Part shown: positions 21,669 through 60,539 of the stretch, one piece after another | How the letters are laid out: each line of letters opens with the position of its first letter | How positions within the stretch are numbered: the first letter of the stretch is position 1 | NCBI GenBank assembly: GCA_025354565.1 | Contig: JANXMQ010000090.1 | Coordinates: 1-64,000 of the forward strand | DNA length: 64,000 nucleotides | Source of the DNA: Akkermansiaceae bacterium | GTDB lineage: Bacteria; Verrucomicrobiota; Verrucomicrobiia; Verrucomicrobiales; Akkermansiaceae | Direction of reading: 5' to 3' | The notes under the pieces: generated by a model | What the model saw: the letters and a program-made list of their open reading frames with translations, nothing else | Told to the model about the DNA's origin: nothing | Database searches by the model: none | Translations under genes and position numbers: made by a program

Positions 21669-22406
21669 GTGGCACCCACCCTTGCGCAACGTCTCGCCGC
21701 TCGCGAGCGACCAACCGGTCGCCCGGTCATGCGCCAGCGTTGGGCGGGTCTGCTTTTCTTGCATTGGCCGGTCGATCCCGCGCTCATTGCCGACCGCCTT
21801 CCGCTCGGTTTGCAGGTTGATCTCTATCAGAATCAGGCATGGCTCGGCATCGTCCCTTTCTTCATGGATCGTGTTAGACCCAGCGGCTTGCCGCCTGTGC
21901 CTTGGCTCTCTTGGTTTCTCGAACTCAACGTCCGCACCTACGTCCACGACGCCCAGGGCAATCCCGGCGTCTGGTTTTTCTCGCTCGATTGCAATCAACC
22001 CATCGCCGTGGAAATCGCCCGCCGCGTTTTTCATTTGCCGTACCAGCACGCCGCCATGCGCGGGGTGGCGACCGGCAATCACATCCACTACACCAGCCGC
22101 CGGAAATCTGCCGTCCCCACGGCCAGCTTCGACTACGAAATTCCCGCCAGCACCCAGCTTGCCGCGCCTGGGTCGTTAGAATTTTTCCTCCTCGAGCGTT
22201 ACCGGCTTTTTTCCACCAATCCCACCGGTGCCATCTTTTCCGGGCGGGTCCACCATGCGCCCTATCAATTTTCTCCCGCCCACTGCGCCCATTGGTCCAC
22301 CGAGCCATTTCGCCTCAATGATTTCCCAGAACCCGCCACCGCCCCGCTGTCTCTGCTCACCGCCGCCCCGGTCGATGTGGATATTTTCCCGCTCCGCCCC
22401 GCATGA
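21669..22406 (+). CDS. DUF2071 (YqjF-like) protein
   Basis: The biochemical function of this family is unknown. The 245-residue protein has the family pattern: RPVMRQRWAGLLFLHWPVDP at the start, LPLGLQVDLYQNQAWLGIVPF, a central FLELNVRTYV block, and the segment GVWFFSLDCNQPIAVEIAR. It starts with GTG at 21669. Its last four bases overlap the ATG of a small membrane protein gene, suggesting translational coupling. Confidence 0.85.
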   Translation: MAPTLAQRLAARERPTGRPVMRQRWAGLLFLHWPVDPALIADRLPLGLQVDLYQNQAWLGIVPFFMDRVRPSGLPPVPWLSWFLELNVRTYVHDAQGNPGVWFFSLDCNQPIAVEIARRVFHLPYQHAAMRGVATGNHIHYTSRRKSAVPTASFDYEIPASTQLAAPGSLEFFLLERYRLFSTNPTGAIFSGRVHHAPYQFSPAHCAHWSTEPFRLNDFPEPATAPLSLLTAAPVDVDIFPLRPA

Positions 22407-22669
22407 CTGATAGCCCACCAAAATCGTGCATGGCCAAGCCTCTGAAGGTGGCGGGGATTTTCTTCGCCGGTCTGATGCTGTGGATGCTTGTCATGATCCT
22501 ATTGCCATCCGGGGAGGATAAAACTCCCACGATTTATCATCACCCGGATGGTACGTTTTCACTCAACCGGAAGGACGGCAAAAGCGTCACGTCGTCCGAG
22601 TCATTCATTTCCCACCTCCATTCGCATAATACCGGCAAAACGAGTCCAGCGAGCCGTCTTGCCGTATGA
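22403..22669 (+). CDS. Small single-helix membrane protein
   Basis: The function is not recognised. Up to 88 residues are encoded, with one transmembrane helix (KVAGIFFAGLMLWMLVMILL) and a polar tail that may lie outside the membrane. The ATG at 22403 overlaps the stop of the DUF2071 gene in an ATGA arrangement, a common sign of coupling. An ATG at 22430 is an alternative. Its last 65 bases overlap the 3' end of the convergent radical SAM gene, which lowers confidence in the C-terminal part. Confidence 0.5.
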   Translation: MTDSPPKSCMAKPLKVAGIFFAGLMLWMLVMILLPSGEDKTPTIYHHPDGTFSLNRKDGKSVTSSESFISHLHSHNTGKTSPASRLAV

Positions 22670-23954
22670 CGTGGGTGCAGCAGCGGTCGATGCGGTCTTG
22701 GTCCCAGGTCCAGGCGTCCATGAAGGGCTTGATGAAGAGGCGGAAGGCGTGCTTTTCCTTCATCTCAAAGCGTTGGAGGATTTCTCCGAGTTCGGTGTTT
22801 TCACAGCCGCATTGGATGAGATCGGCGAGTTCGTAGTTCACCTTGTCGCGCAGGAAACCTTGGAGGCTGGCGAAGTCGATGAACTCAGAAATGCTGCGGG
22901 TGCCGATGGGCGTGCGGAGGAGGAAGCCGATGGTGGCGCAGTTGGGATCGCCGCAGGGAAGCGGGGTGAAGTCTTCGTAGCGGAGTTTTCCGGCGGATTG
23001 CTCGACGGTGCCGAGGATGATGTCAGCGGTGTTGAGGCGCTCGGAGTCGGCTTCGTGGACGCGTCCGGTGCGGAACATCGGCTGGAAGGAAACGCCACGG
23101 CAGACCTCGTGCTTGAGGCCGGTGAGGATGGTGTCCCAGAGGTGGGGCAAATTTTCCGGAGTGACGGTCATGGCGAGGGTGAAGGGGATGCCCTCGCGCT
23201 CGCAGCGGTCCATGGCGAGTCGTTGCATGTCGCGGAAATCCCCGCCGCGCAGCTCGTGGTGGCCGGCGGCTTGCGGGCCGTCGAACTGGAGGTAGAGCTG
23301 GAAATGTCCGCGCCGCCCGCGTTTGCCGAGTTCGGCGAGGAAGGGGTCTTCCTTGGCGATGCGCACGGCGTTGGTGTTGACGAGGCAGTAGTCGATTTGC
23401 GGGTGCGCGTGAATCCAATCGACCAGTTTGAAAAACTGCGGATGCAAGGTCGGCTCGCCGCCGGAGAGTTGGAGGATCTCGATTTTCCCCTTGCGGTCGA
23501 TGACGCCCTGGATGCGAGTTTGCAGAGACTCCAGCGAGTGGGATTTCAAGCGATCCCCGGCTGCGCCGATGGGCGAATCCGCGAAACAGGTGGGGCAGGC
23601 GAGGTTGCAGGAATCCACGATTTCGATGAGCGCGAGGCAGGTGGAGAGGATTTCCACCTCGGGCACGGTGGCGTTGGCATTGCGGCCAAGAGTGCCGTTG
23701 ATGCCGCTAGTATCGGCGGAACAAGCGCACCCGGCCCCGCAGGAATTCGCGGGATCGCCCTTGGCCAGCCAGTAGAAGCGGGCGTCGCTGGCGATGCAGG
23801 CCGTGGCCTCGCCATGCTCGGCGCAAGTGCGAGTGAGATAGACCTTCGCGGGTGTACCGGTGGTTTTCCAAACTTCTGCTGGGACCGCAGCTTGGCAGGT
23901 CGGGCAGCGGGAGGTGGTGTGTTTCAGGGATTCTTTGAGAGTGGGGAAGATCAT
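22605..23954 (-). CDS. Radical SAM enzyme resembling tetraether/membrane-spanning lipid synthases
   Basis: The 449-residue protein has an N-terminal zinc-like segment (CPTC at about residues 17-20, then CAEHGE). The radical SAM cluster motif CNLACPTC lies at about 116-123. A glycine-rich SAM-binding stretch (LQLSGGEPTLHPQF) and extra cysteine clusters (CGAGCACS, CGDPNC, CGCEN) follow. This order, zinc-like head then CxxxCxxC, is what I know from the MJ0619/Tes family, which joins lipid tails into membrane-spanning lipids, and from related bacterial proteins. The lipid role is an inference from family resemblance. The ATG at 23954 begins the family-like part, and an upstream extension to 24038 was rejected. 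Confidence 0.75.
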   Translation of the reverse strand: MIFPTLKESLKHTTSRCPTCQAAVPAEVWKTTGTPAKVYLTRTCAEHGEATACIASDARFYWLAKGDPANSCGAGCACSADTSGINGTLGRNANATVPEVEILSTCLALIEIVDSCNLACPTCFADSPIGAAGDRLKSHSLESLQTRIQGVIDRKGKIEILQLSGGEPTLHPQFFKLVDWIHAHPQIDYCLVNTNAVRIAKEDPFLAELGKRGRRGHFQLYLQFDGPQAAGHHELRGGDFRDMQRLAMDRCEREGIPFTLAMTVTPENLPHLWDTILTGLKHEVCRGVSFQPMFRTGRVHEADSERLNTADIILGTVEQSAGKLRYEDFTPLPCGDPNCATIGFLLRTPIGTRSISEFIDFASLQGFLRDKVNYELADLIQCGCENTELGEILQRFEMKEKHAFRLFIKPFMDAWTWDQDRIDRCCTHVIRQDGSLDSFCRYYANGGGK

Positions 23955-24061
23955 GGTGGATGATGCGGGAGGACTAGGACACATGCGCTTGCAAAAAGTG
24001 TGCAACAAACGACCACTTGGCCGAGGAAATATGCCCAACTCAGAAAAAACAAAGTGACACG

Positions 24062-24391
24062 TTAACTAGCAATCAACATACAGGACCCCACCCACATGAC
24101 GATGCAGACGATGATTTGCCCGAGGAAATAGGCGATATTCAGATAGACCACCGAGCGCCCCCGATAGCGCGTGCCGACGGCGTTCTTGAACATAAAGAGA
24201 AATCCAAAGATGACGAAAAAGACCACGATCGGAACCCACAGAAAGGTCGTGCCATAGTTATTCCGGGGCTCGCAGCCAGCGACGATCAGATTTCCTAACA
24301 AAGTAGCCGCCGGTGGCACGGCGAGTGAGATCCATAAAGCCTTCCGTGGCACTTCCGGCACGGGCCGGGGGATTTGCGGAACTTCTTCCAT
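24062..24391 (-). CDS. Small membrane protein, three predicted helices
   Basis: The function is not recognised. From the ATG at 24391 the product has 109 residues with three hydrophobic segments: LAVPPAATLLGNLIVAG, FLWVPIVVFFVIFGFLFMF and VVYLNIAYFLGQIIVCIVMW. A GTRYRGRS loop lies between the last two. It is about 110 bases upstream of the radical SAM gene on the same strand and may be co-transcribed with it. That would fit a membrane-lipid theme but proves nothing. Confidence 0.6.
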   Translation of the reverse strand: MEEVPQIPRPVPEVPRKALWISLAVPPAATLLGNLIVAGCEPRNNYGTTFLWVPIVVFFVIFGFLFMFKNAVGTRYRGRSVVYLNIAYFLGQIIVCIVMWVGSCMLIAS

Positions 24392-24738: not shown

Positions 24739-27700
24739 ATGAAACCCTTACCATCCTATCGTAAGTTCCTCGCCCTCGCGGGTTCCACCTCTGTGTTCCT
24801 GTCATGCCTGCCAGCTTTCGCGGCGGATGCCACTTGGAATGTGAACGCTAGCGGAAATTGGTCCGTAACCAGCAAATGGCTACCCGCTGCCGCACCCGGC
24901 GCGACCTCTGGCACCACCAATACCGACACGGCGACTTTCGGCTCGGCCATCCTTGCGCCGTGTACGGTCACCGTGGACACCACCAACCGCAACCTCCTTG
25001 GGATCAATTTTTCAGGAAATTCATTCGGTTACACCCTGATCACCGGCAATCTACTCATCACCAACGGGGGCCTTATCCAGTCCAGCGGCAGCGGCGCAGC
25101 CCACACGGATACCTTCAGTGCCCCGATTGTGATTCAGGGCACCGTCGGTGCCGCCACTTTCACCTCTGGTGCCTCTATCAACGGGAGTATCATGAGCCTT
25201 GGCACCGTGACGGGCGTCTCCACCTCGACGAGCACGACCCTGACGCTCAACGGCACAAACGGTTCTAGCAGCAGCGCCAGCGCCATCACCGGAGCCATCA
25301 CAAACGGCGGTAGCGGACTATTCGCGATTGCGAAGTCGGGGACCGGGGTTTGGATTCTGAGTGGCGCGAACACGTTTAGCGGCGGAGTCACACTCTCGGA
25401 CGGCACGCTCAAGCTCGGCAGCACCACGGCTCTCGGCACCGTTGCAGGAACCCTCACGATCAATGGTGGCTTGCTCGATTCAAGCGTCGCGAGCCTGACG
25501 ATTGCAAACAACAATCCCGAGACGTGGAATGCGGATTTCGGTTTCACAGGATCCAATGCACTGAACTTGGGGACTGGCGCGGTTTCCCTCGGCACGCTTG
25601 CCGGAACTTCCCGTTCCGTGACCGTATCAGCCAACACGCTCACGATCGGGGGGATAATTTCTAACGGTACTACGGCTAACAGTCTGATCAAAGCAGGTGC
25701 CGGAACGCTGGTTCTATCAGGCGCTAACACCTTCACCGGCGGCGTGACGCTGACTGGCGGCACCCTCAAATTCGGCAACAACACCGCGATCGGCACCTCG
25801 GCAGGAACCCTCACGATCAACGGTGGCACGTTTGACACGGCTACAGGATCGGTTACTTTCGGCAATAACCCACAGATTTGGAATGGCGATTTCACCTTCA
25901 CTGGATCGAGCAACCTGACCTTCGGCACCGGGACCATCTCGCTTGGAACGGCAGCAGGAACCTCCCGCAGCGTGACCGTGAGCAACAATTCCCTCACCAT
26001 TCCCGGCGTCATCTCCAACGGCACCACCGCCAATAGTCTAATCAAAGCAGGCACCGGAACTCTGGTTCTTTCAGGCGCGAACACCTTCACGGGCGGCGTG
26101 ACGCTCACCGACGGCACGCTCAAGCTCGGCAGCACCACGGCTCTCGGCACCTCGGCAGGAACCTTCACAATCAATGGCGGAGCGCTCGACTCGAACGTCG
26201 CGAGCCTGACGATTGCAAACAACAACCCCCAGACTTGGAATGCAGATTTCATTTTTACGGGATCCAATACACTGAACTTGGGGAATGGCGCGGTTTCTCT
26301 CGGCACACTGGCCGGAACCTCTCGTGCCGTGACCGTAAGCGCGAACACGCTCACGATCGGGGGGATAATCTCTAACGGCACTACGGCCAATAGCCTCATC
26401 AAAGCTGGCACCGGAACGCTGATTCTGTCAGGCGCTAACATCTTCACCGGTGGTGTGACGCTCACCGCTGGCACCCTGAAATTTGGCAATGCCACGGCGC
26501 TTGGCACGACAGCGGGGACCTTCACGATCAATGGTGGCGCGTTCGACTCTAGCGTGTCGACGATGGGAAATTATCTTCAGACGTGGAACGGTGATTTCAC
26601 CTACACCGGTTCGACGACGCTGACCTTCGGCACCGGTGCCGTCTCGCTCGGAACGGCAGCGGGAACCTCCCGCACCGTGACCGTGAGCAACAATTCCCTC
26701 ACCATTCCCGGCGTCATCTCCAACGGCACCACCGCCAATAAACTGATCAAAGCAGGAGTAAACGGGATCCTGCTTTTGTCGGGTGCTAACGCCTACACTG
26801 GCGGCACCACCGTGACGGGCGGCGAGCTGCAATTCACCACGGCGGGCAGCGTGCCGAACACGGGTAATTTGCTCGTCAATGGCGGCGCGCTGACGATAAA
26901 AAATAACAACACTGGTTTTTCTAACAGCAATACCGTGACCGTGCAAAATGGCACCTTGAACATCAGCGCGTCCAGCTCGAATAACCAGACGCTCGGCGGC
27001 ACAGGCAGCGTGAATACCGGACCGACGATCACCCTTGGCAATGCGGCAAACCTCACCGACCTCACGTCCACCATCGCCGTCACCACGAGTTCGGTGAACC
27101 TGAATAATCCGATCAATGTGGTGGGAAAAAGCTCTAGTTCCAGCGTGTATAACAACGTCATCAGTGTCGGCAACAATCCCAGCATGCAGGCCGGGGCGAT
27201 CACGTTGGCCGGCAATGGCACCACTTATCGAACGAATTTAAAGCTGGATATCGTTACTGCGAACAACGGCGGCGGTTTTGGTGCGGTAAGCGGCACTGGC
27301 AATGTAACGGTCAGCGTTTCCGCGAATCCATTCTCGACTCCCGCCGTCGGTGTTTTGAACAACCTCGGCACGGTGACGGTATCAGGTGGTGGCGTGGCCG
27401 GCTCGGGCGCGACCTTGAACCTCACCGGTCTGGGTTCGAACGTCACCGGGCTTAGCATCAGCTCCACAGCTCCGACGCTGAGCCACCCGATCACGATCAG
27501 CGGCGCGAATTCGACTTTCACCGGAGACACGACACTTGCGTCTGGTGCCGGGTTCACCCAGTTGACCAACACGAACGCGTTGCAAAACAGCGTGCTCAAC
27601 TTAGTCAGCAGCTCCTTCTCGTTTGGCTCACTCACTGCCGCCTCGCTTGGTGGCCTCGCCGGTGCGCCGGGTGTGGTCCTCCTTAACACAACGCCCGCTG

Positions 27701-30330
27701 CAGTCGCCCTCACCATCGGCAACAGTAACAGCCTCAACAGTGCCAGCTCAAACACTTTGAATCCCACCTACTCGGGTATCCTAAGCAACACCGGCAGCCT
27801 GATCAAAGTCGGCAGCAATAACCAGACCTTCACCGGCGCAAGCAGCTATACCGGCACGACCACCCTATCCGGCGGGACGCTGACCTTAGGCACTGGCGGC
27901 TCACTCGGGAATACCGCGATCACCGTCGGTTCCACCGCCACCTTGTCAGTTGTCGCCGGTCGCTCTGCGGGGAATACTGCCACGTCCGCAGCGGGTGCCA
28001 CGCTGACACTCAACTATGGCTCCACCTTGAATCTCCAGGACGGCACAGTGGGTAACTTCACGGTCAGCCGTGGGGCAACGGCCGCCGGCACGATGCTGAC
28101 CCTCGCGGGCGGCACCCTGATGTTTGACATCGGCACATCGACGGGGGCGGTGCTTTCCCCATCAGACACACTCGTCCTCAACAGCACATCGGCCCCGGTC
28201 GTGGCGAGTGGCAGCAACATCATTTCGGTGAACACCGCCACCGCGACCTCGCTGTTCTTGGGTGCCACCTACAATATCATCACGGGCGGCACCAGCGGCC
28301 TTGGCACCGCGAACTATGTCATCAGCAACCCGAACGCCTCATCCGGCGGGACGTTTTATCACTTCACGGTGGCGGGGAGCGGCACCCAGGAAGTGCTGAC
28401 GGTGGCGGCGGGTCTTGTGCCGACACTGCTCGGTGGTTTCTGGATTGGCAGCGAGAGCAGCAGTTGGGCCTTCCAAGACGGCACCACCTTCAAAACGAAT
28501 TTCTCTGGGGTCGCTCTCGGCACCTCCAATGCCTATGCCCTGCCAGACTTCAATACGAACGTGACCTTCACGGCGAATACCGCAGCAAACCTGAGCACCA
28601 CGCTGAATCAGAATTTCACGATCAACAGCCTGACGTTTTCCGGCACGGGCACCAGCAACACCGCCGGCTCGACCATCGCCTCCGGCACCGGCACAAACAC
28701 CCTGACCCTCAATGCCGCCGCCCTCAACGGCAACGTCGCAGGCAATGGAATCTTCGTAGTTGCGGGCGCGGGGACTGACACCATCACCACCAATGTGAAT
28801 CTCGCCCTCAGCCAGACGTGGACCAATAATTCCACGAATCCCTTGGTCGTGAGCGGCGCGGTGAGTGAGTCGAGCGCTGGATTGGTTTTAACCAAGGCCG
28901 GCGCGGGTCCTCTAACACTGGCGGGTAATAACACTTACTCTGGTGGCACCCTCCTCACCAGCGGCACCCTCAACATCAACTCGCAAGGTATCGCAGCCGG
29001 TAACTCCGCCCTTGGCACCGGCAGACTCACGCTTTCCAGCGGCACCCTCAACAACACCAGCGCCGGAACCGTTGATCTCAGCGCCACGACGAACAACGTG
29101 CAGACGTGGAACACCGGAAGCAGTATCGTGTTCACTGGGACCAGCGCCCTAAACCTCGGCAATGGCGCGGTGACTTTTGGTAATAGCGCGGCCACGGACA
29201 CGATCACCCTCACTAACAACAGCGGGCTGGCAGGCACCGCGCTCACCATCGGCGGCGCGATCACCCCAGGCACGGGTGGCACGGCTGGCGTGAAAACTCT
29301 AGCCATTTCCGGCACGGGCATGACCGCGCTGACCGGCATCATTTCCAACGGCACTGCCACTGCGTTCAACATCAGTGTCATCAATGCCGGCAACCTTACC
29401 CTTTCCGGAACTAACAGCTACACTGGCTCCACCACGTTGAGCAACGGTAGTCTCACTGTCAGCTCCACTGGCACGCTCAACAACTCCAACGGCATCTCGA
29501 TCGGTGCCGCGGAATTCAGATATAACTCCACCACAGCCCTCTCGCCCGCCGTCACCTTCAGCAGCACGGGCGGCTTACTCAGCGGCACCGGCACCATTAC
29601 CCAAGCCGTCACTGTTCCTGCGGGAAATTCAGTCGCCCCCGGTAGTGGCGGTATCGGAATCCTGAGCTTCAGCGGCGGTCTAACGATCTTCGGTACCTAC
29701 GCCTGTGATGTCAGTGGTGTGAACTCGGACAAACTCGCCGTCGTCGGAAATCTCAACATTTCCACCGCCACCCTAACCGTCTCCGGTGTCCCGACCGCCC
29801 CCAGCTACACCATCGCCAGCTACACCGGCACCCTCACGGGCAGCACCTTTGGCGCGATCAGTCCCACCATCCCCGCCGGTTACTACGTCGTCGTGGATAC
29901 GATCAACAAGCTGATCCTCCTGCAGGAAGGCACTTACGACACATGGGCCGTCGTCAAGGGCCTCACCGGTGCCAACAACGGCACTCTCCAGGACCCTGAC
30001 AACGACGGCATCTTCAACCTTTTGGAATACGTTCTCAACGGCAATCCGCTCAGCTCCTCCCTGTCCATCCTGCCCACGGTGTCGCTCACCACCAGCAACT
30101 ACATCTTCACCTTCAACCGCCGTTACGAATCCAAGGACGACACCACCCAAGTCTTCCAATACGGTACCGACCTTTCCGGGTGGACCGACATTGCGATTCC
30201 GGCCACAAGCTCCGGCAGCGTGACCATCACGGCGAATACGCCAAGCGCTGGCATCGACCTCGTGACCGTAACCATCCCTAGGGCAGGCAACCCCATTCTC
30301 TTCGGCCGCCTCAAGGTTACTAAGCCTTAA
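24739..30330 (+). CDS. Giant secreted protein with autotransporter-associated beta-strand repeats
   Basis: The 1,863-residue protein begins with a signal peptide (hydrophobic core to PAFAAD) and consists largely of Gly/Thr/Asn/Ser-rich beta-helix sequence. Repeats such as AGTGTLVLSGANTFTGG match the passenger-associated repeat seen in autotransporters. Four consecutive units of about 119 residues (25327-26742) are highly alike, and more diverged units follow to about residue 1600. There is no C-terminal beta-barrel. Instead the end has a calcium-loop-like stretch DPDNDGIFNLLEYVLNG, and a final beta domain (FNRRYESKDDTTQVFQYG) that I associate with secreted Verrucomicrobia proteins. It is probably a surface or released adhesin-like filament. 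Confidence 0.88.
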   Translation: MKPLPSYRKFLALAGSTSVFLSCLPAFAADATWNVNASGNWSVTSKWLPAAAPGATSGTTNTDTATFGSAILAPCTVTVDTTNRNLLGINFSGNSFGYTLITGNLLITNGGLIQSSGSGAAHTDTFSAPIVIQGTVGAATFTSGASINGSIMSLGTVTGVSTSTSTTLTLNGTNGSSSSASAITGAITNGGSGLFAIAKSGTGVWILSGANTFSGGVTLSDGTLKLGSTTALGTVAGTLTINGGLLDSSVASLTIANNNPETWNADFGFTGSNALNLGTGAVSLGTLAGTSRSVTVSANTLTIGGIISNGTTANSLIKAGAGTLVLSGANTFTGGVTLTGGTLKFGNNTAIGTSAGTLTINGGTFDTATGSVTFGNNPQIWNGDFTFTGSSNLTFGTGTISLGTAAGTSRSVTVSNNSLTIPGVISNGTTANSLIKAGTGTLVLSGANTFTGGVTLTDGTLKLGSTTALGTSAGTFTINGGALDSNVASLTIANNNPQTWNADFIFTGSNTLNLGNGAVSLGTLAGTSRAVTVSANTLTIGGIISNGTTANSLIKAGTGTLILSGANIFTGGVTLTAGTLKFGNATALGTTAGTFTINGGAFDSSVSTMGNYLQTWNGDFTYTGSTTLTFGTGAVSLGTAAGTSRTVTVSNNSLTIPGVISNGTTANKLIKAGVNGILLLSGANAYTGGTTVTGGELQFTTAGSVPNTGNLLVNGGALTIKNNNTGFSNSNTVTVQNGTLNISASSSNNQTLGGTGSVNTGPTITLGNAANLTDLTSTIAVTTSSVNLNNPINVVGKSSSSSVYNNVISVGNNPSMQAGAITLAGNGTTYRTNLKLDIVTANNGGGFGAVSGTGNVTVSVSANPFSTPAVGVLNNLGTVTVSGGGVAGSGATLNLTGLGSNVTGLSISSTAPTLSHPITISGANSTFTGDTTLASGAGFTQLTNTNALQNSVLNLVSSSFSFGSLTAASLGGLAGAPGVVLLNTTPAAVALTIGNSNSLNSASSNTLNPTYSGILSNTGSLIKVGSNNQTFTGASSYTGTTTLSGGTLTLGTGGSLGNTAITVGSTATLSVVAGRSAGNTATSAAGATLTLNYGSTLNLQDGTVGNFTVSRGATAAGTMLTLAGGTLMFDIGTSTGAVLSPSDTLVLNSTSAPVVASGSNIISVNTATATSLFLGATYNIITGGTSGLGTANYVISNPNASSGGTFYHFTVAGSGTQEVLTVAAGLVPTLLGGFWIGSESSSWAFQDGTTFKTNFSGVALGTSNAYALPDFNTNVTFTANTAANLSTTLNQNFTINSLTFSGTGTSNTAGSTIASGTGTNTLTLNAAALNGNVAGNGIFVVAGAGTDTITTNVNLALSQTWTNNSTNPLVVSGAVSESSAGLVLTKAGAGPLTLAGNNTYSGGTLLTSGTLNINSQGIAAGNSALGTGRLTLSSGTLNNTSAGTVDLSATTNNVQTWNTGSSIVFTGTSALNLGNGAVTFGNSAATDTITLTNNSGLAGTALTIGGAITPGTGGTAGVKTLAISGTGMTALTGIISNGTATAFNISVINAGNLTLSGTNSYTGSTTLSNGSLTVSSTGTLNNSNGISIGAAEFRYNSTTALSPAVTFSSTGGLLSGTGTITQAVTVPAGNSVAPGSGGIGILSFSGGLTIFGTYACDVSGVNSDKLAVVGNLNISTATLTVSGVPTAPSYTIASYTGTLTGSTFGAISPTIPAGYYVVVDTINKLILLQEGTYDTWAVVKGLTGANNGTLQDPDNDGIFNLLEYVLNGNPLSSSLSILPTVSLTTSNYIFTFNRRYESKDDTTQVFQYGTDLSGWTDIAIPATSSGSVTITANTPSAGIDLVTVTIPRAGNPILFGRLKVTKP
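25327..26742 (+). repeat. Four tandem repeats of about 354 bp inside the giant gene
   Basis: Units start at 25327, 25684, 26038 and 26395, and a partial one starts at 26743, giving spacings of 357, 354, 357 and 348 bases. Each begins with codons for (I/L)(A/I)K(A/S)G and continues with LSGAN.F(T/S)GG. Units 2 and 4 resemble each other, as do units 1 and 3, in their middle parts, suggesting duplication of a two-unit block or gene conversion. Such arrays can expand or shrink by recombination. Confidence 0.8.
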
Positions 30331-54293: not shown

Positions 54294-55316
54294 ATGAATC
54301 CCACCAACATTTCCAATCAGACTCTCCTCGATGGCATTTGCCGCCGTGGAGTGCTCGTCTCAACCTCCGTCCGTTACTGGCGCGGATGTAAGCGACTCAA
54401 TCCAGAAGACCTGGGACTCGATCCCGCGCACGTTTCCGACCGGCTCATCCAGCTCGGTCACAAACGCCTGATCCCGCGCGACGCCTTGCAGGCATTTGCC
54501 CTGATCGAATCCCGGGTGCAGGCCACCGTCGAAAGCTCCAGCTTCCCGTTCCTAGGAGGCATCGGTCGCTTCGTCCCAAACCCGCGCCTCGGTGATCTAA
54601 CTGACAGGCTCGAAAAACTCCGCGATGAATTTCGCGAAGCCACACTCGACTTTGTGGCTGGTTACACACCGTTGCGTGAAAACGCTTTGATCGAATGGCG
54701 CGAGGCCGCCCGCCACATGAACGGCAGTGCGGAACGCTTGATCGCCACCATCGAACAATCGTTCCCGCCCGCAGGGGACATCGCCAAGCGTTTTGGTTTT
54801 GAAACACGCCTGTTCCAGATCGCAGCGCCCGACAGCATCCGCCTGGAGATTGCCGACGGCATGGCACAACTCGAAGTGGCGGACGACCGCCGCCGTATTG
54901 CTGAGGACGCTTCCAGACGCTTACAGGCCGACTTGGACGGCTTTATCCGCGAAAGTGTCGCCAGTATGCGCGAAGAGACAGCCAAGCTTGCCAGTGAAGT
55001 TCTTGCGACCATCAACGGATCTGAAAACGGCGTCCATCAGCGCACTCTCAATCGCCTCACCACGTTCATCGACAGCTTCCGCAGTTTGAACTTTGCCGGC
55101 GACCAACAGTTGGAACAAACGCTCGAACGCTTCCGTCGCGACCTACTCAGTCGCACAGCCGAGGACTATCGCAATCAACCCGGTGCCATGACAAGCCTCA
55201 CAGATGGCCTCACCCGCCTGCGCGAAAATGCCGTGCAACTCGCCCGCACCGACGCCCGCGAGGTCATCTCCCGTTTCGGGCAGATGGGCACGCGGAAGCT
55301 GGCTGCGGTCGGATGA
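54294..55316 (+). CDS. DUF3150-like protein
   Basis: The 340-residue cytoplasmic protein is largely helical and rich in Arg, Glu and Ala. The N-terminal VLVSTSVRYWRGCKRL is followed by KRLIPRDALQAFALIESRVQ, AVESSSFPFLGG-like sequence and a long region suited to coiled coils (about residues 180-330). This order resembles the DUF3150 family, which I associate with plasmids and integrated elements near AAA ATPases. The function is unknown. It stands as its own unit between two terminators. Confidence 0.65.
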   Translation: MNPTNISNQTLLDGICRRGVLVSTSVRYWRGCKRLNPEDLGLDPAHVSDRLIQLGHKRLIPRDALQAFALIESRVQATVESSSFPFLGGIGRFVPNPRLGDLTDRLEKLRDEFREATLDFVAGYTPLRENALIEWREAARHMNGSAERLIATIEQSFPPAGDIAKRFGFETRLFQIAAPDSIRLEIADGMAQLEVADDRRRIAEDASRRLQADLDGFIRESVASMREETAKLASEVLATINGSENGVHQRTLNRLTTFIDSFRSLNFAGDQQLEQTLERFRRDLLSRTAEDYRNQPGAMTSLTDGLTRLRENAVQLARTDAREVISRFGQMGTRKLAAVG

Positions 55317-55404
55317 CTCGAAATATGCTTCCGCCAGGGCCATTCCTGACGGAAGCACCTAAATCATGACATGTTTTCCGTCCCAGTCCGTTCATGATGT
55401 GAAC

Positions 55405-55530
55405 ATGCCCACAATGGTTGCTATACCTGTGCCAGATACATTGTTTCTTCACTCCAAGAATCTCCCAGCCTTGGAACAGCGCAGTCGATTTCTGCTGGCG
55501 TTGAAATACTTTGAACTCGGTGAACTGACA
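55405..55530 (+). pseudogene. Truncated UPF0175-like gene remnant
   Basis: The ATG at 55405 opens MPTMVAIPVPDTLFLHSKN, followed by RFLLALKYFELGELT. This matches my memory of the first half of UPF0175 proteins (small antitoxin-like proteins). In intact members, SLGQAAELAGMS-type sequence follows. Here the frame continues into low-complexity Pro/Ser/Asn codons until 55602, so the helix-turn-helix half is missing. It is probably a decayed toxin-antitoxin fragment. Family assignment is moderate because only about 40 residues remain. Confidence 0.45.
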
Positions 55531-55696
55531 CGATCCCTTTCTCCTAACACGCCACTACCCTCACTCATCAAGCCAAATTCATCACCACCAGCACTCTTTT
55601 AAACCACCACTACTCCCACTTCCCGCAACTCTACCAAAACCATCTCCTCAGCCAAAATCCCCACTCAACACGCCAATCCATCACCTGAATCCGCAG
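55531..55696. other. G-depleted non-coding stretch
   Basis: About 165 bases of A, C and T contain only around ten G residues on the plus strand. No coding frame is convincing. The segment joins the UPF0175 remnant to a strong terminator. Its transcript would be nearly unstructured. Confidence 0.5.
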
Positions 55697-55729
55697 CAAG
55701 AGCGGCCTGTTTCATACGGGCCGCTCTTG
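55697..55729 (+). terminator. Intrinsic terminator
   Basis: Perfect eleven-base arms CAAGAGCGGCC (55697-55707) and GGCCGCTCTTG (55719-55729) enclose an eleven-base loop. Flanking GCAG/TTGC bases can extend the stem. The T run is weak. It separates the DUF3150-like unit from the DUF1257 unit. Confidence 0.8.
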
Positions 55730-55782
55730 TTGCATCTCTCCCCTAATAACCATTAACAAATAACCTCTAACTCAACAAAAAA

Positions 55783-56172
55783 TTGTCACACTTCACCACC
55801 ATCCAGACCCAGATCCGCGATCTTGATGCCCTTAATGACGCCTGCGTCGAAATGGACCTCAAGCTTGTCGACAACGCCAACTGCCGTGGCTACGCAGGCA
55901 CCACCCGCCAGGCACCCCACGTCATCCAGCTCAAAGGCCCCTACGACATTGCAGTAGATCCTTCCCCGGATAACGACGGCACCTATGGCCTAACCACCGA
56001 CTGGTGGGACGGGCACGCTGCTAAGGAAGTCGGCATCGGCTACGGCCGCTTGCTGCAATCCTACGGCATCCACAAAACCATCCGCGAGGCTCGTTCACGC
56101 GGACTGCGCACCACCCGCAGACAGGAAGCCGATGGCTCAATCCTGCTGACATTAGAAGGAGGTTCGCTGTGA
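55783..56172 (+). CDS. DUF1257 (Ycf35-like) protein
   Basis: The 129-residue protein belongs to the family of chloroplast/cyanobacterial Ycf35, whose biochemical role is unknown. The pattern is SHFTTIQTQIRDLDALNDACVEM, NCRGYAGTT, YDIAVDPSP, the central YGLTTDWWDGHA and LLQSYGIHKTIREARSRG. The start is TTG at 55783, with no ATG upstream in frame, preceded by an A/C-rich leader without Shine-Dalgarno. It overlaps the DUF2997 gene by four bases (GTGA), and an AAA ATPase gene follows. That arrangement recalls the cyanobacterial ycf35-DUF2997 pairing. Confidence 0.85.
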   Translation: MSHFTTIQTQIRDLDALNDACVEMDLKLVDNANCRGYAGTTRQAPHVIQLKGPYDIAVDPSPDNDGTYGLTTDWWDGHAAKEVGIGYGRLLQSYGIHKTIREARSRGLRTTRRQEADGSILLTLEGGSL

Positions 56173-56375
56173 GCCGCCGCATTCATGTCCGCATCTCGCC
56201 TATTGGAGAAATTACCGTTGAGGCTGAAGGGTTCCAAGGCAAAGGCTGCGAGGCCGCTACCAAGGCCATTGAAGACGCTCTCGGTAAACCCCGTGAGCGC
56301 ACCCGCAAACCCGATTTCTGGCGGCAGTCCCAACGCCACCAGAACCAACAACAACTCGGCGAAGGAGATTCATAA
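56169..56375 (+). CDS. DUF2997 protein
   Basis: The 68-residue protein starts with GTG at 56169 inside the last codons of the DUF1257 gene. It shows RIHVRISPIGEITVEAEGFQGKGCEAATKAIEDALG, which is the whole DUF2997 pattern, with the conserved GKGC. A basic, Gln/Arg/His-rich tail follows. The function is unknown. The two families occur together in cyanobacteria, so a joint role is likely. Confidence 0.82.
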   Translation: MSRRIHVRISPIGEITVEAEGFQGKGCEAATKAIEDALGKPRERTRKPDFWRQSQRHQNQQQLGEGDS

Positions 56376-56379
56376 AACC

Positions 56380-56667
56380 ATGAACCAAACCCTTCGCTTC
56401 AACCCCGGCGGTCACATCGACTGCCTTTACACAGAAGCGATTAATCTTCGTGCGCTCGGGAGACTTACCGTCTTCCGGGCCACGGACATCCGCTTCTGTG
56501 AACGCACCCAACTCTGGAAGGTCCGCTGCGCCTCCACCGGCAAGCTCCTTCACTGCGACCCATCGCGCGAGGCTTGTCTGATCTGGGAACGCGAAAATCT
56601 CGGTCCGCCCAACCCGGCCGCGCAGAGATCCGCGATAACATTGCCGAACCTGAAAACTAAAAACTAA
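56380..56667 (+). CDS. Hypothetical protein between DUF2997 and AAA ATPase genes
   Basis: The function is not recognised. The 95-residue protein begins MNQTLRFNPGGHIDCLYTEA and has IRFCERTQLWKVRCASTGKLLHCD, ending with a basic tail. Three cysteines and a histidine in that middle part could bind metal. A longer frame from 56185 overlaps the DUF2997 gene and was rejected. It starts four bases after the DUF2997 stop and ends 12 bases before the AAA ATPase start, so all four genes form one operon. Confidence 0.65.
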   Translation: MNQTLRFNPGGHIDCLYTEAINLRALGRLTVFRATDIRFCERTQLWKVRCASTGKLLHCDPSREACLIWERENLGPPNPAAQRSAITLPNLKTKN

Positions 56668-56679
56668 CAAACATAAACA

Positions 56680-58200
56680 ATGCAAAATCAACTCACCACC
56701 TATCTATCAGCAGGCTATCCCGGCCTCGCAGTCGTCAGTTCCGAAGAAGCTCGTGCTGAATCCGAAATCGCTTCTGTCTGCACATCCCTCAACCGCCGCC
56801 TTCACGCTTGGTCGTCCAGTGAGGGCTTGGCCGATACCAAGGAAGGCCATGTCACTGCCTGCCCTGATCCGTTGGACGCCCTCCAACTCCTCGACGGCAT
56901 GTTTGCGGCCGACAGCCCGCGCCACGTCGTGCTGTTCCGCGACCTCCAACTCCACATGGACCAAAGCGATCCGATGCTCGTGCGGCGGATCAAAGACATC
57001 CTGCGAATCGCCAAAACCAACGGTCACTCTATCATCCTGCTGGGTTGCCGTCTAAAACTCCCGCCCGAACTTGAACATGAAATCACGCATGTCGATTTTA
57101 GCCTGCCAGACAACAACCAACTGGGCGTAGTTTTGGACGGCATACTCAAATCCGCCAAGCTCAAGGCACCCCACGAAGCCATCCGGGAAGCCGCATTGCA
57201 AAGCGCACTTGGTCTAACAACCACCGAGGCGGAAAACGCGTTTGCCCTGTCAATCATCGAAACCAAGGGCATCGACCACAAGATCGTCGCTCGCGAGAAA
57301 GCACGCACACTCAAGCGCAGTGGTCTAGTTGAGGTTGTAGAGGCTTCTACGGGTCTTGGAGACATCGGCGGACTCGATCACCTTAAAGAGTGGCTGTTGC
57401 GGCGTGGAGGGGCCTTCAGTGCCTTCGCCAAAGCCTATGGCCTACCAGCGCCGAAAGGTCTGCTGATAGTCGGCATCCCTGGCACCGGCAAATCGCTAAC
57501 CGCAAAAGCCACCGCCGGAGCATTCGGCCTTCCGTTACTCCGTCTCGACATGGGACGCGTCTTCGGCGGCATCGTCGGCCAAAGTGAATCCAACCTGCGA
57601 TCCGTCATCCAAACCGCCGAGGCCATCGCGCCCTGTGTCTTATGGATCGACGAAATCGAAAAGGGCTTCAGTGGCTCTCAAAGCAGCGGCAGCACCGATG
57701 GAGGAACCTCCTCACGCGTGTTCGGGAGTTTCCTTTCTTGGATGCAGGAGAAGGAAAAACCCGTGTTCGTGGTGGCAACGGCGAACGATGTTTCAAAACT
57801 CCCACCTGAGTTTTTGCGCAAAGGGCGCTTCGATGAATTGTTTTTCGTCGATTTGCCCGATGTCCAAGAGCGCACACAGATTTGGGACATCCTCATCAAG
57901 CGTCATGGTCGCAAGGCCAAGGACTTCGATACCGTGGCATTGTCCCGCGCTTGCGAGCAATTCACCGGTGCCGAGATCGAGGCAGTGTTCATTGATGCCC
58001 TGCATGAAGGATTTGCCGATGGCCGCGAACCCAAGGCCAAGGACATCCTTACGGCCATCACGAATACCGTGCCACTGGCCCAACTGATGGACGGTCAGAT
58101 CGCCGCCCTGCGCCACTGGGCGAAAGGCCGCGCGCGTGAAGCTGCCGGACGCGCTACGCCTGCACCGCGCAACTCCCGCCGGATAGCGGAAGCGAATTGA
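56680..58200 (+). CDS. AAA+ ATPase, Ycf46-like
   Basis: The 506-residue cytoplasmic ATPase has an N-terminal domain of about 220 residues (LTTYLSAGYPGLAVVSSEE start) followed by one AAA module. Walker A is GIPGTGKS (265-272), Walker B LWIDEIEK (321-328), sensor 1 ATAND (366-370) and arginine fingers FLRKGRFDELFF. The pattern matches Ycf46-type ATPases of chloroplasts and cyanobacteria, which are CbbX/FtsH-like motors of poorly known function. It is the last gene of the DUF1257-DUF2997 operon. The convergent ParE toxin gene ends two bases beyond its stop. Confidence 0.9.
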   Translation: MQNQLTTYLSAGYPGLAVVSSEEARAESEIASVCTSLNRRLHAWSSSEGLADTKEGHVTACPDPLDALQLLDGMFAADSPRHVVLFRDLQLHMDQSDPMLVRRIKDILRIAKTNGHSIILLGCRLKLPPELEHEITHVDFSLPDNNQLGVVLDGILKSAKLKAPHEAIREAALQSALGLTTTEAENAFALSIIETKGIDHKIVAREKARTLKRSGLVEVVEASTGLGDIGGLDHLKEWLLRRGGAFSAFAKAYGLPAPKGLLIVGIPGTGKSLTAKATAGAFGLPLLRLDMGRVFGGIVGQSESNLRSVIQTAEAIAPCVLWIDEIEKGFSGSQSSGSTDGGTSSRVFGSFLSWMQEKEKPVFVVATANDVSKLPPEFLRKGRFDELFFVDLPDVQERTQIWDILIKRHGRKAKDFDTVALSRACEQFTGAEIEAVFIDALHEGFADGREPKAKDILTAITNTVPLAQLMDGQIAALRHWAKGRAREAAGRATPAPRNSRRIAEAN

Positions 58201-58202
58201 GT

Positions 58203-58496
58203 CTATTGTCGCCGCAATCCGAATCGCGGGTTGCGGCGATGATGCCGGACGACCATCACCTTGATGCCCCAAGGCTTCTCTTCGTAGAGAAAATGATAGG
58301 GAAAATCCGGCAGATTTGCCCTCCGGACGGTTTCACTGAGAGGTGGAAAATGCCTTGGATTGGCAAGGGCCTTAGCCACAGTGCTCAATAGGGCGGAGAA
58401 AAATCGATTTGCCAGATGCGGGCCAGCCTCAACCTCGTAATGATCAATAATCTGCCTGACGTCCGCAGCGGCAGATCGGTGGTAAATCACCTTCAT
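58203..58496 (-). CDS. ParE/RelE-family toxin
   Basis: The 97-residue protein has the RelE/ParE fold pattern: VIYHRSAAADVRQIIDHYEVEAGPHLANRFFSALLSTV at the start and the C-terminal FPYHFLYEEKPWGIKVMVVRHHRRNP. ParE-type toxins poison DNA gyrase, while RelE-type ones cut mRNA. Which applies here is not decidable, though the sequence is nearer ParE. Its ATG overlaps the stop of the antitoxin gene by four bases, the usual antitoxin-toxin order. Confidence 0.88.
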   Translation of the reverse strand: MKVIYHRSAAADVRQIIDHYEVEAGPHLANRFFSALLSTVAKALANPRHFPPLSETVRRANLPDFPYHFLYEEKPWGIKVMVVRHHRRNPRFGLRRQ

Positions 58497-58711
58497 GCAG
58501 GACGGCCGACCGCTTTGAGAAATTCATCCTGAGTGAGGCACGCGGACGGGTCGTTGTCCATTTCCTCAGACCGTCGGAGTGCCTCCGCAAGTCCCTCGTC
58601 ATCCTCGACCAGCACCCCAGGCAGCGAATCAAGTAAATCCGCTGCAAGCTTGGCCCTGGCCGATTCTGGAAGCCTGAATGCCAAGGTTTCAATTTCTGCG
58701 AGCGTGACCAT
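58493..58711 (-). CDS. Addiction-module antitoxin
   Basis: The 72-residue protein (MVTLAEIETLAFRLPESARAK, then LAADLLDSLPGV, then EALRRSEEMDNDP) matches the small 'addiction module component' antitoxins that precede ParE-like toxins. It should bind and block the toxin at 58203-58496 and probably represses the pair. The open frame extends far upstream to 59347, but only the part from the ATG at 58711 fits the family. Confidence 0.85.
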   Translation of the reverse strand: MVTLAEIETLAFRLPESARAKLAADLLDSLPGVLVEDDEGLAEALRRSEEMDNDPSACLTQDEFLKAVGRPA

Positions 58712-58891
58712 GCCCAAACAGTAATCCGGGTTGTCCGCCCGATCAAGCCGCTTTGTTTTGTGGCACCAAACACACTCACCGCAAGCGTTCCCTCCCCCCG
58801 AATACGCCCGCCTATAAACAGGCCACCAAGGAGACAAAGCACTCTCCGTGGTGGACCGTTCCTTTTCCCTAACAAACAACCCCATCAAATC

Positions 58892-59317
58892 ATGGCCAAC
58901 TACTACGCAACCGCGCGAAGCAATTACTTCGCAGTCAAGGATGAAACCGCATTCCGCGAATGGGCGGCACGGCTTGGACTGCATATTCTCGAACCCACAC
59001 ACCGCGACAAGGTGGCCGATGGCATCCCCAGATACGGAATCACACCCGGCGATGGAGATGGCAGCGGATGGCCGACCATGCGATATAACGAGGAAACTGA
59101 CGATTACGACGACACCGACGTATCCGAGCAACTTTCGGCTCATCTTGCAAATGACGAAGTGGCAATTCTCATGGAAGTGGGAAACGAGAAGCTGAGATAT
59201 GTAAGCGGTTCCGCCGTGGCCGTGAACAACCAAGGCAAATCCGTATTCCATAATCTCGGCACCATCTACCAAAAAGCCCGACGTCTGGGCAAGAACATCA
59301 CCTTGGCAGAATACTGA
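58892..59317 (+). CDS. Hypothetical protein of the DNA-processing island
   Basis: The function is not recognised. From the ATG at 58892 the product has 141 residues: MANYYATARSNYFAVKDETAF at the start, an acidic middle (ETDDYDDTDVSEQL) and LANDEVAILMEVGNEKLRYVSG later. It has no membrane segments. Its leader (CCTAACAAACAACC just upstream) resembles that of other genes in the island. A terminator follows at 59348-59381, so it forms its own transcript. Its acidic middle could mimic DNA, but that is speculation. Confidence 0.6.
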   Translation: MANYYATARSNYFAVKDETAFREWAARLGLHILEPTHRDKVADGIPRYGITPGDGDGSGWPTMRYNEETDDYDDTDVSEQLSAHLANDEVAILMEVGNEKLRYVSGSAVAVNNQGKSVFHNLGTIYQKARRLGKNITLAEY

Positions 59318-59347
59318 ATGTTCCGTCATCCGGCATCCCAACCTCAC

Positions 59348-59381
59348 GCCGCCATGAACCCTTCGGGATCTTCATGGCGGC
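59348..59381 (+). terminator. Intrinsic terminator
   Basis: Perfect eleven-base arms GCCGCCATGAA (59348-59358) and TTCATGGCGGC (59371-59381) have a 12-base loop and are followed by ATTTTCCTTTT. It closes the transcript of the 141-residue protein. Confidence 0.88.
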
Positions 59382-59462
59382 ATTTTCCTTTTCTGACCCA
59401 GCGTCACACGACGTCCGGTCTCTCCCTAACCTGAACACTGAAAACTGAAAACTAGCAAACTT

Positions 59463-60539
59463 ATGACTCCCATCCAATCCACCTCCCTCCACTACCACGA
59501 AGGCAACTCCGATAAAGTCTATCAAGCCGCCATCGCGCCGAAGGACGACGGCTACATTGTCACCTTCGCCTATGGCCGTCGAGGAAACACACTCAACATC
59601 GGAGTAAAAAACGAAACTCCCGTGCCGCTCGAAACCGCGACCATGCTCTACAATAAGCTCGTCGCATCAAAAGTCGCTAAAGGCTATCAACCTGACGGCC
59701 AATCCGCCAAACCCTACCAGCAATCCGGCGACGAGGGACGCGACAGTGGAATACGCTGCCAGCTCCTGAACCCGGTTGACGAAAGCGAACTCACCCGACT
59801 GCTCGCCGACAGACGGTATTGCCTTCAGGAGAAACACGATGGACGACGCCTCATGGTCCACAAACATGGCAATGAAATAATCGGCATCAACCGCCGAGGA
59901 CTTATCATCGCGATTCCTGATCCGATCCGTGAAGCAGTAAAGCAAATCCCATTCGACTCCCTAATAGATGGCGAGGTTGTAGGCGAGGTTTACCACGCCT
60001 TTGATTTACTCGTGCTAAAGGGTGAGAATATTCGTGAACGCCGATACATTGACCGTTGTGTGGCCTTGATGAGAATTCTTCCCCCCAAGCAAAAAGCCAT
60101 TCGCCCCGTCCGCACGATTCTTCCAGCACACGACAAGGCACGGGTTTTAGAGGAACTCCGCCAAGCCAACCGCGAAGGAGTCGTCTTCAAGGATACAGAG
60201 GCACCTTTCAACGTCGGTCGTCCCAACTCCGGTGGCACGCAGTTGAAATACAAGTTCGTCGAGACCGCGTCATTTATCGTCACCGCCCGCAATGCGAAGC
60301 GGAGTGTCACCCTCGGCCTGTTCGATGGCATTGAGCTGGTATCTGCCGGCAATGTCACCATCCCGCCCAACCATGAGGTTCCAGCCCAGGGCGATGTGGT
60401 GGAGTGCCGCTATCTCTACGCATTTCGCGAAAGTGGCTCGATCTACCAGCCTGTCTATCTCGGAAAGCGTTGTGACATCCCGGCCAGCGATTGCACTACG
60501 GACCAGCTCAAATACAAATCTGAGGCACAAGCCGCTTGA
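59463..60539 (+). CDS. WGR-domain ATP-dependent DNA ligase
   Basis: The 358-residue protein joins an N-terminal WGR-type domain (about 1-75, with SLHYHEGNSDKVYQAAI and TFAYGRRG) to an ATP-dependent ligase core. The AMP-accepting lysine is Lys124 in motif KHDGRR. Further nucleotidyltransferase motifs are LIDGEVVG, YHAFDLLVLKGENI, EGVVFKD and QLKYKF. A C-terminal OB-fold part follows (VTIPPNHEVPAQGDVVECRYLY). It resembles the ligase part of LigD but carries WGR, a DNA-end or nick-binding domain best known from PARPs. It is the last plus-strand gene of the island, and a terminator lies at 60614-60647. Confidence 0.88.
   Translation: MTPIQSTSLHYHEGNSDKVYQAAIAPKDDGYIVTFAYGRRGNTLNIGVKNETPVPLETATMLYNKLVASKVAKGYQPDGQSAKPYQQSGDEGRDSGIRCQLLNPVDESELTRLLADRRYCLQEKHDGRRLMVHKHGNEIIGINRRGLIIAIPDPIREAVKQIPFDSLIDGEVVGEVYHAFDLLVLKGENIRERRYIDRCVALMRILPPKQKAIRPVRTILPAHDKARVLEELRQANREGVVFKDTEAPFNVGRPNSGGTQLKYKFVETASFIVTARNAKRSVTLGLFDGIELVSAGNVTIPPNHEVPAQGDVVECRYLYAFRESGSIYQPVYLGKRCDIPASDCTTDQLKYKSEAQAA

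Follow-up and report, generated by a model that had tools for sequence, protein, structure and literature searches.

Does the radical SAM gene at positions 22605-23954 of the window (by which we mean the whole 64,000-nucleotide stretch analysed) encode an enzyme that links lipid tails? The first-pass annotation had proposed this from the cysteine motifs of the product and from a small membrane protein encoded just upstream, and had suggested that the organism could make membrane-spanning lipids. The gene is an intact frame on the minus strand with an ATG start at 23954, and all of the motifs are real: CPTC at residues 17-20, CAEHG at 44-48, CNLACPTC at 116-123, and further cysteines at 72, 76, 78, 334, 339, 382, 384, 425, 426 and 440. 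The gene and its motifs are as follows.

22605..23954, minus strand: Tes-fold radical SAM protein P0001, 449 aa, a member of the Lgt-linked group described below.
23814..23906, minus strand: rubredoxin/zinc-ribbon-type head C17-x2-C20 ... C44-x2-H47 (PF23545), in columns conserved in Tes and its relatives.
23586..23609, minus strand: radical SAM cluster motif C116-x3-C120-x2-C123 (CNLACPTC), invariant in all rows of the compared alignments.

P0001 is no chance frame, since other genomes encode proteins 78-87% identical to it and it has both Pfam and phmmer matches. The Pfam families above cut-off are PF23545 (HMPTM zinc ribbon) and PF04055 (Radical_SAM). The suggested resemblance to Tes was also borne out. 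A phmmer search against the PDB yielded the archaeal Tes/GDGT-MAS structures 7TOL/7TOM (E 8e-29, with a second matching stretch in the C-terminal domain) as the sole sequence relative at E 0.01. The AlphaFold model of P0001 (pLDDT 80.7, with weak loops at 66-96 and 366-394) superimposes on 7TOM with Z 37.7 and rmsd 2.8 over 392 residues; the second fold is MoaA, with Z 18.3, and SuiB and SkfB, both peptide maturases, follow Tes among the next-ranked folds. Thus the predicted whole-length fold of P0001 is that of archaeal Tes/GDGT-MAS, and P0001 is closer to Tes than to any other solved structure. Assignment to the peptide maturases proper was rejected, as the SPASM-type NCBIfam families score far under their cut-offs and the fold match is to Tes.

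P0001 is not Tes. Sequence and fold searches lead to Tes, but the Tes profile NF045702 gives only 145.8 bits against a cut-off of 450. The highest-scoring curated profile is TrsS (NF045646), whose cut-off of 490 bits P0001 also fails, with 198.5 bits. The control genome of Thermotoga maritima had no match to the Tes model at E 1e-30. The cofactor ligands of Tes (rubredoxin-type site, N-terminal cluster, radical SAM cluster, C-terminal cluster) were taken from the accessible text of PMC9433317. The rubredoxin-type C-x2-C...C-x2-H is kept in P0001 as C17, C20, C44 and H47, and the radical SAM CX3CX2C as C116, C120 and C123. The C-x3-C-x2-C motif and histidine of the N-terminal auxiliary cluster are absent: P0001 has C72-x3-C76-x-C78 and no histidine, and this set is degenerate in parts of its clade. 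The labile Met439 of the C-terminal cluster is replaced by K409, with lysine in 11 of the 12 clade rows and a gap in the remaining one. Tyr459, which according to the accessible text of PMC9433317 is not essential in Tes, is replaced by valine. Peculiar to the P0001 group are an invariant PLPC-GDPNC and a CGC pair present in nearly all members. The distance from PLPC to the C-terminal domain is 69 residues in P0001, 118 in 7TOL and 121-125 in two Planctomycetota Tes proteins.

The same picture emerges from a 73-enzyme tree (SH-aLRT support after a quick search). Tes, two Planctomycetota proteins above the Tes cut-off and three Tes-like proteins form one group; P0001 lies far from it, amid enzymes of Verrucomicrobiota and Planctomycetota, with an Lgt-like neighbour in 8 of 12 rows. 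A clade uniting Tes with the P0001 group is rejected at a cost of 147 log-likelihood units (p-AU 4.2e-6, an optimistic value as the group was chosen after the tree had been seen). In the sense of this tree, P0001 is closer to another radical SAM group, an outcome that the first-pass annotation itself had named as counting against its proposal.

The commonest neighbour around the close-clade enzymes is a 230-aa membrane protein matching the Lgt family PF01790, present at 22 of 32 loci, some of which are two records of one genome. Such Lgt-like genes also stand beside enzymes about 30% identical in Bradyrhizobium, Paenibacillus, Flavobacteriaceae, Planctomycetes, Mycobacterium and others. For a wider count, 142 loci of at least 5,500 bases with an enzyme match above 140 bits in sum were thinned at 70% enzyme identity to 71 representatives. 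The Lgt-like gene adjoins the enzyme in 43 of these, from many phyla; 14 are methyltransferase-linked, 13 have neither neighbour and one has an N-type Lgt. The Lgt-linked label is not confined to a single clade, as it requires 10 changes on the 73-enzyme tree.

A model of one Lgt-like protein matches E. coli Lgt with Z 12.4, the next fold reaching 5.1. Aligned with Lgt, the Lgt-like proteins keep the FR...EF motif and the GR of GRLGN, have cysteine for the asparagine of GRLGN in 40 of 43 cases by a simple pattern count, and lack the histidine of the FHGG/HGG motif of canonical Lgt. The aligned positions are presumably R143, R239, N146 and H103 of E. coli Lgt, with their roles there. Since this histidine and this asparagine are gone, plain diacylglyceryl transfer by the Lgt-like protein is uncertain. 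Four Lgt-like proteins from other genomes scored 26-56 bits and thus missed the canonical Lgt cut-off (TIGR00544, 118.9 bits). Besides a single canonical Lgt (207 bits), the window genome carries a single Lgt-like gene (71 bits). Within the window, no Lgt-like gene is adjacent to the enzyme; it lies elsewhere, and its product is 83% identical to the enzyme-adjacent one in a related genome (G001).

G000:C93:6136-6831: Lgt-like gene of the window genome with GRxGC, on another contig than the enzyme.

The two genes occur together even when unlinked. Of 288 Verrucomicrobiota genomes, 10 have the enzyme (E 1e-12), and the 9 that have the Lgt-like gene are all among them. In the window genome and in G311 the two are on different contigs, and the tenth enzyme genome (G135) has only a weak partial Lgt-like match. 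These nine genomes are not nine independent events, as five of them belong to one family. Among 39 relatives, both genes are present in 8, and one genome (G024, 81% complete) has the enzyme and no Lgt-like match. The Lgt-like gene occurs alone in three, shortened in G011 and broken by stops in G013 and G015, and G034 retains an enzyme remnant with stops. In these genomes, decay of one partner thus accompanies absence of the other.

G013:C5:64917-65213 and G015:C45:446-619: stop-broken Lgt-like remnants in close relatives lacking the radical SAM gene.

Over the 43 Lgt-linked loci, the identities of enzymes and Lgt-like proteins are correlated (Mantel r 0.56, reached in 0 of 2000 shuffles), a correlation that shared descent of the hosts could also yield.

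The small membrane protein upstream of the window gene, noticed already in the first reading, is real and belongs with the enzyme. A second, much reduced one lies between them.

24062..24391, minus strand: small membrane protein, candidate substrate, 109 aa, ATG at 24391, three hydrophobic helices.
23951..24037, minus strand: second small membrane protein, present as a remnant or mini-copy that consists of the last helix with its cysteine.

The remnant's TGA overlaps the enzyme's ATG start codon. The last helix of the 109-aa protein contains ...VGSCMLIAS, and homologues stand at the matching place in related genomes. The helix cysteine is invariant in 10 aligned relatives, the window protein included, at 17-58% identity to the latter and for some of them no more than 17-20%. 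Tandem small membrane proteins lie beside the enzyme at some loci: four in L051, three in L093 and three in L102. No family was above cut-off for the window protein together with 14 other small proteins in Pfam and 11 in NCBIfam.

Other genes of the window were noted. Directly upstream of the module and on the opposite strand, a 1,863-aa plus-strand frame (24739-30330) with passenger-associated transport repeats (PF12951) encodes an autotransporter-type surface protein. A small plus-strand ORF of 88 aa (22403-22669) had no family match in NCBIfam or Pfam. At 54294-60539, a DUF3150 protein, an AAA ATPase and a short ATP-dependent DNA ligase with a WGR domain are encoded in a row; the G+C content falls to 0.44 in the adjoining 60-64 kb, and the region is perhaps a mobile or phage-derived island.

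The association of small cysteine-bearing proteins with the enzyme was counted in the 71 representatives by a strict rule: frames of 45-185 aa with at least two hydrophobic helices and G/A/S-x-Cys in a helix. There are 32 such proteins in 78 strand-kb near Lgt-linked enzymes and 3 in 715 strand-kb farther off in the same loci, that is, they are about 100-fold denser beside the enzyme. None occurs in 26 strand-kb beside the methyltransferase-linked sisters. Counted by locus, the protein is present in 25 of 43 Lgt-linked and 0 of 14 methyltransferase-linked representatives (Fisher 8e-5). This count replaces a preliminary, unthinned one (72 of 96 near vs 13 of 61 far). All 42 small helix-bearing frames near Lgt-linked enzymes have a cysteine in a helix. 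The strict rule found no protein in 18 of the 43 Lgt-linked representatives; most of these loci have a similar one with a looser motif, outside the length range or on the opposite strand, and in a few (e.g. L070, L106, L260) even a looser look found no small cysteine protein. Chance neighbourhood is ruled out by the near/far and Lgt/methyltransferase comparisons, together with the co-occurrence of the unlinked genes.

The position of the cysteine was analysed in 117 small proteins, thinned at 60% to 110, of which about 11 context rows near an end are out of register. The median position of the cysteine is 0.76 along the helix, 11 residues from the C-terminus. Lysine and arginine are more numerous on the N side of the cysteine helix in 79 proteins, equal in 20 and fewer in 11. 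Given this position and charge bias, the cysteine is probably near the outer face of the membrane, where Lgt works. Glycine or alanine precedes it at -2 in 71 of the 110, although the site-picking rule itself favoured G/A/S there. In pairwise alignments with cysteine scored zero, the cysteine sites coincide in only 14 of 30 related within-locus pairs, which counts against the substrate reading given below.

Taken together, the observations (the fold, the place in the tree, the co-occurrence and adjacency of the genes, the enrichment of the small cysteine proteins and the conservation of their cysteine) make us lean towards the reading that the window gene is part of a three-part module in which the small protein is the substrate of a lipoprotein-like modification that acts on its transmembrane cysteine and uses radical chemistry. 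In this module, the Tes-fold radical SAM enzyme would act alongside an integral membrane transferase that is a divergent relative of Lgt, and at least one small membrane protein. The tandem copies would suit a substrate role for the latter.

Lgt transfers diacylglyceryl from phosphatidylglycerol to a cysteine at the outer end of a signal peptide. In the module, the helix running from inside to outside, an orientation judged from the charges, would carry its cysteine near the outer end, resembling a lipobox placed in a transmembrane helix and not in a signal peptide. The Lgt-like enzyme would bring a phospholipid-derived lipid to this cysteine. The radical SAM enzyme might then direct a 5'-deoxyadenosyl radical at the protein or the lipid tail, attacking an unreactive C-H bond there and making a further C-S or C-C link; the donor, the order of the steps and the bond made are our conjecture. 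In Tes, according to the accessible text of PMC9433317, lipid tails enter a tunnel, hydrogen is abstracted from their ends and an intermediate bond is formed to a cluster sulphur. By analogy, the pairing of relatives of Lgt and Tes with a constant cysteine at the outer helix end suggests lipid transfer to the cysteine and a second link made by the radical enzyme. We tentatively propose that the Tes-type radical SAM enzyme and the Lgt-like protein install a covalent lipid on the helix cysteine, possibly via an unactivated tail carbon, by an undescribed route of lipidation.

Other readings are conceivable. The module might act on free lipid, first the Lgt-like protein and then the Tes-fold enzyme working on phosphatidylglycerol, with the small proteins as chaperones, anchors or regulators. 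In its favour, the respective relatives of the two enzymes, Tes and Lgt, bind lipids, and the highly diverse small proteins share little but the cysteine. However, it would remain unexplained why a cysteine at the outer helix end is their most conserved feature and why they occur in up to four tandem copies, so we consider this reading unlikely. A radical SAM enzyme accompanied by several small genes in tandem also recalls a RiPP-like system, in which the small membrane proteins would be precursors of exported bioactive peptides and the enzyme their maturase, as the rank of SuiB and SkfB among the next folds might suggest. This is quite improbable, as the small proteins, with their two or three membrane helices, show no visible division into leader and core, no conserved peptidase or exporter is prominent among the commonest neighbours, and the constant partner is Lgt-like. 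Finally, a Tes- or Mss-like synthase joining fatty-acid tails into diabolic-acid-type lipids, the original proposal, shares with P0001 the whole-length fold, the rubredoxin-type head, CX3CX2C and the C-terminal CC and FC cysteines of M. jannaschii Tes, but is very improbable: P0001 fails the Tes and TrsS cut-offs, lies outside the Tes clade, lacks the equivalents of the N-cluster histidine and Met439, has before its C-terminal domain a stretch of 69 residues against 118-125 in Tes (which, judged from chain positions, may hold helices of the second lipid pocket there), and belongs to a family that goes with an Lgt-like transferase and small cysteine-bearing membrane proteins, also in ordinary mesophiles. 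Because the enzyme belongs to this Lgt-linked system, the gene is not evidence for membrane-spanning lipids.

Returning to the proposed module, we surveyed the spread of the enzyme family with the Tes profile at E 1e-30, naming groups by the record title of their centre. Planctomycetota had matches in 37 of 199 genomes, and the Chloroflexota set centred on L108 in 24 of 201. Two sets of 299 genomes each, one centred on a Bradyrhizobium (Pseudomonadota) and the other on L073 (Bacillota by its title), had them in 9 and 23, respectively. Neighbours were examined at the best 30 of the 60 listed Planctomycetota matches and at all 25 Chloroflexota, 9 Pseudomonadota and 28 Bacillota loci, in 1.5-kb flanks, so that genes farther off or past contig ends were missed. 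A GRxGC Lgt-like neighbour occurs at 18 of the best 30 Planctomycetota loci, 3 of 25 in Chloroflexota, all 9 in Pseudomonadota and 2 of 28 in Bacillota, where class C is assigned by pattern only and the letter after GR may wrongly come from a second GR of the frame. Cluster-7-type methyltransferases adjoin 1 of the best 30 in Planctomycetota, 14 of 25 in Chloroflexota, 0 of 9 in Pseudomonadota and 14 of 28 in Bacillota. By record titles, the enzyme family spans at least eight bacterial phyla, and the hosts of Lgt-linked enzymes include such ordinary mesophiles as Bradyrhizobium, Paenibacillus and Flavobacteriaceae.

The Tes cut-off is passed by only two genomes in these four groups, both among the 199 of Planctomycetota (L301 and L302, in G386:C58 and G364:C142; 577 bits, well above the cut-off for archaeal Tes). 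Neither has an Lgt-like or methyltransferase neighbour, and by sequence they are better candidates for bacterial lipid-linking enzymes. Genomes of Chloroflexota and of clostridial type carry a Tes-like sister group of radical SAM enzymes (L157, L199-L211, L226-L237) whose genes often adjoin one for a class I methyltransferase; the methyltransferases inspected have an HPGG motif. In a related genome with no Lgt-like match, locus L137 (G006:C121:6389-8751) contains two different Tes/TrsS-like radical SAM genes side by side, whose products are 33% and 26% identical to P0001.

In the open-access literature on a link between Lgt and radical SAM enzymes we found nothing on such a module, although it may have been described elsewhere; apparently, the three-part Lgt-linked system is widespread and undescribed. 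In the accessible text of two published screens (PMC8941075, PMC11868695), bacterial Tes homologues are candidates for branched GDGT synthesis, their activity being unproven. With a fragment of M. jannaschii Tes as query, thresholds of E below 1e-30 and 30% identity are passed by all 14 methyltransferase-linked representatives and by 32 of the 43 Lgt-linked ones, fractions that will differ from those of the published screens, as our query lacked the middle part and the screens used other Tes proteins. P0001 itself fails such a threshold (E 1e-23, 27% identity). Thus screens of bacterial Tes homologues would accept most of the Lgt-linked family as possible makers of branched GDGTs, and many of the published homologues probably belong to the Lgt-linked or methyltransferase-linked type. 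This bears on which organisms count as producers of a widely used palaeotemperature marker. If the proposed mechanism is true, relatives of Lgt and the archaeal tetraether synthase would together give bacteria a second means of anchoring or modifying membrane proteins through cysteine, one that depends on radicals.

The system can be compared with four known ones. Bacterial Mss is said to have the catalytic architecture of Tes (accessible text of PMC13274423). Like Tes/GDGT-MAS (MJ0619, 7TOL/7TOM, NF045702), P0001 has the fold over 392 residues, the rubredoxin-type head and the radical SAM motif, and shares the C-terminal FMDA...CC...FC with the M. jannaschii protein. Unlike Tes, it belongs to a separate clade, reaches 146 of 450 bits, lacks the N-cluster histidine, has lysine for Met439 and valine for Tyr459, adds the PLPC...NPxC and CGC cysteines and is shorter before the C-terminal domain. 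TrsS (NF045646) is the top curated profile for P0001, and the PxPC cysteine is common to P0001 and the methyltransferase-linked enzymes. The latter have a class I methyltransferase beside them and small cysteine-bearing membrane proteins at 0 of 14 loci, whereas no such methyltransferase lies within 4.5 kb of the window gene; the methyltransferase that goes with TrsS bears the name TrsM. Compared with E. coli Lgt (5AZB), the Lgt-like partner lacks the HGG histidine (taken as H103), has cysteine for the GRLGN asparagine (N146 by the same reckoning) and scores far under the NCBIfam Lgt cut-offs, but it is a PF01790 protein with the Lgt fold and retains the GR and FR...EF motifs.
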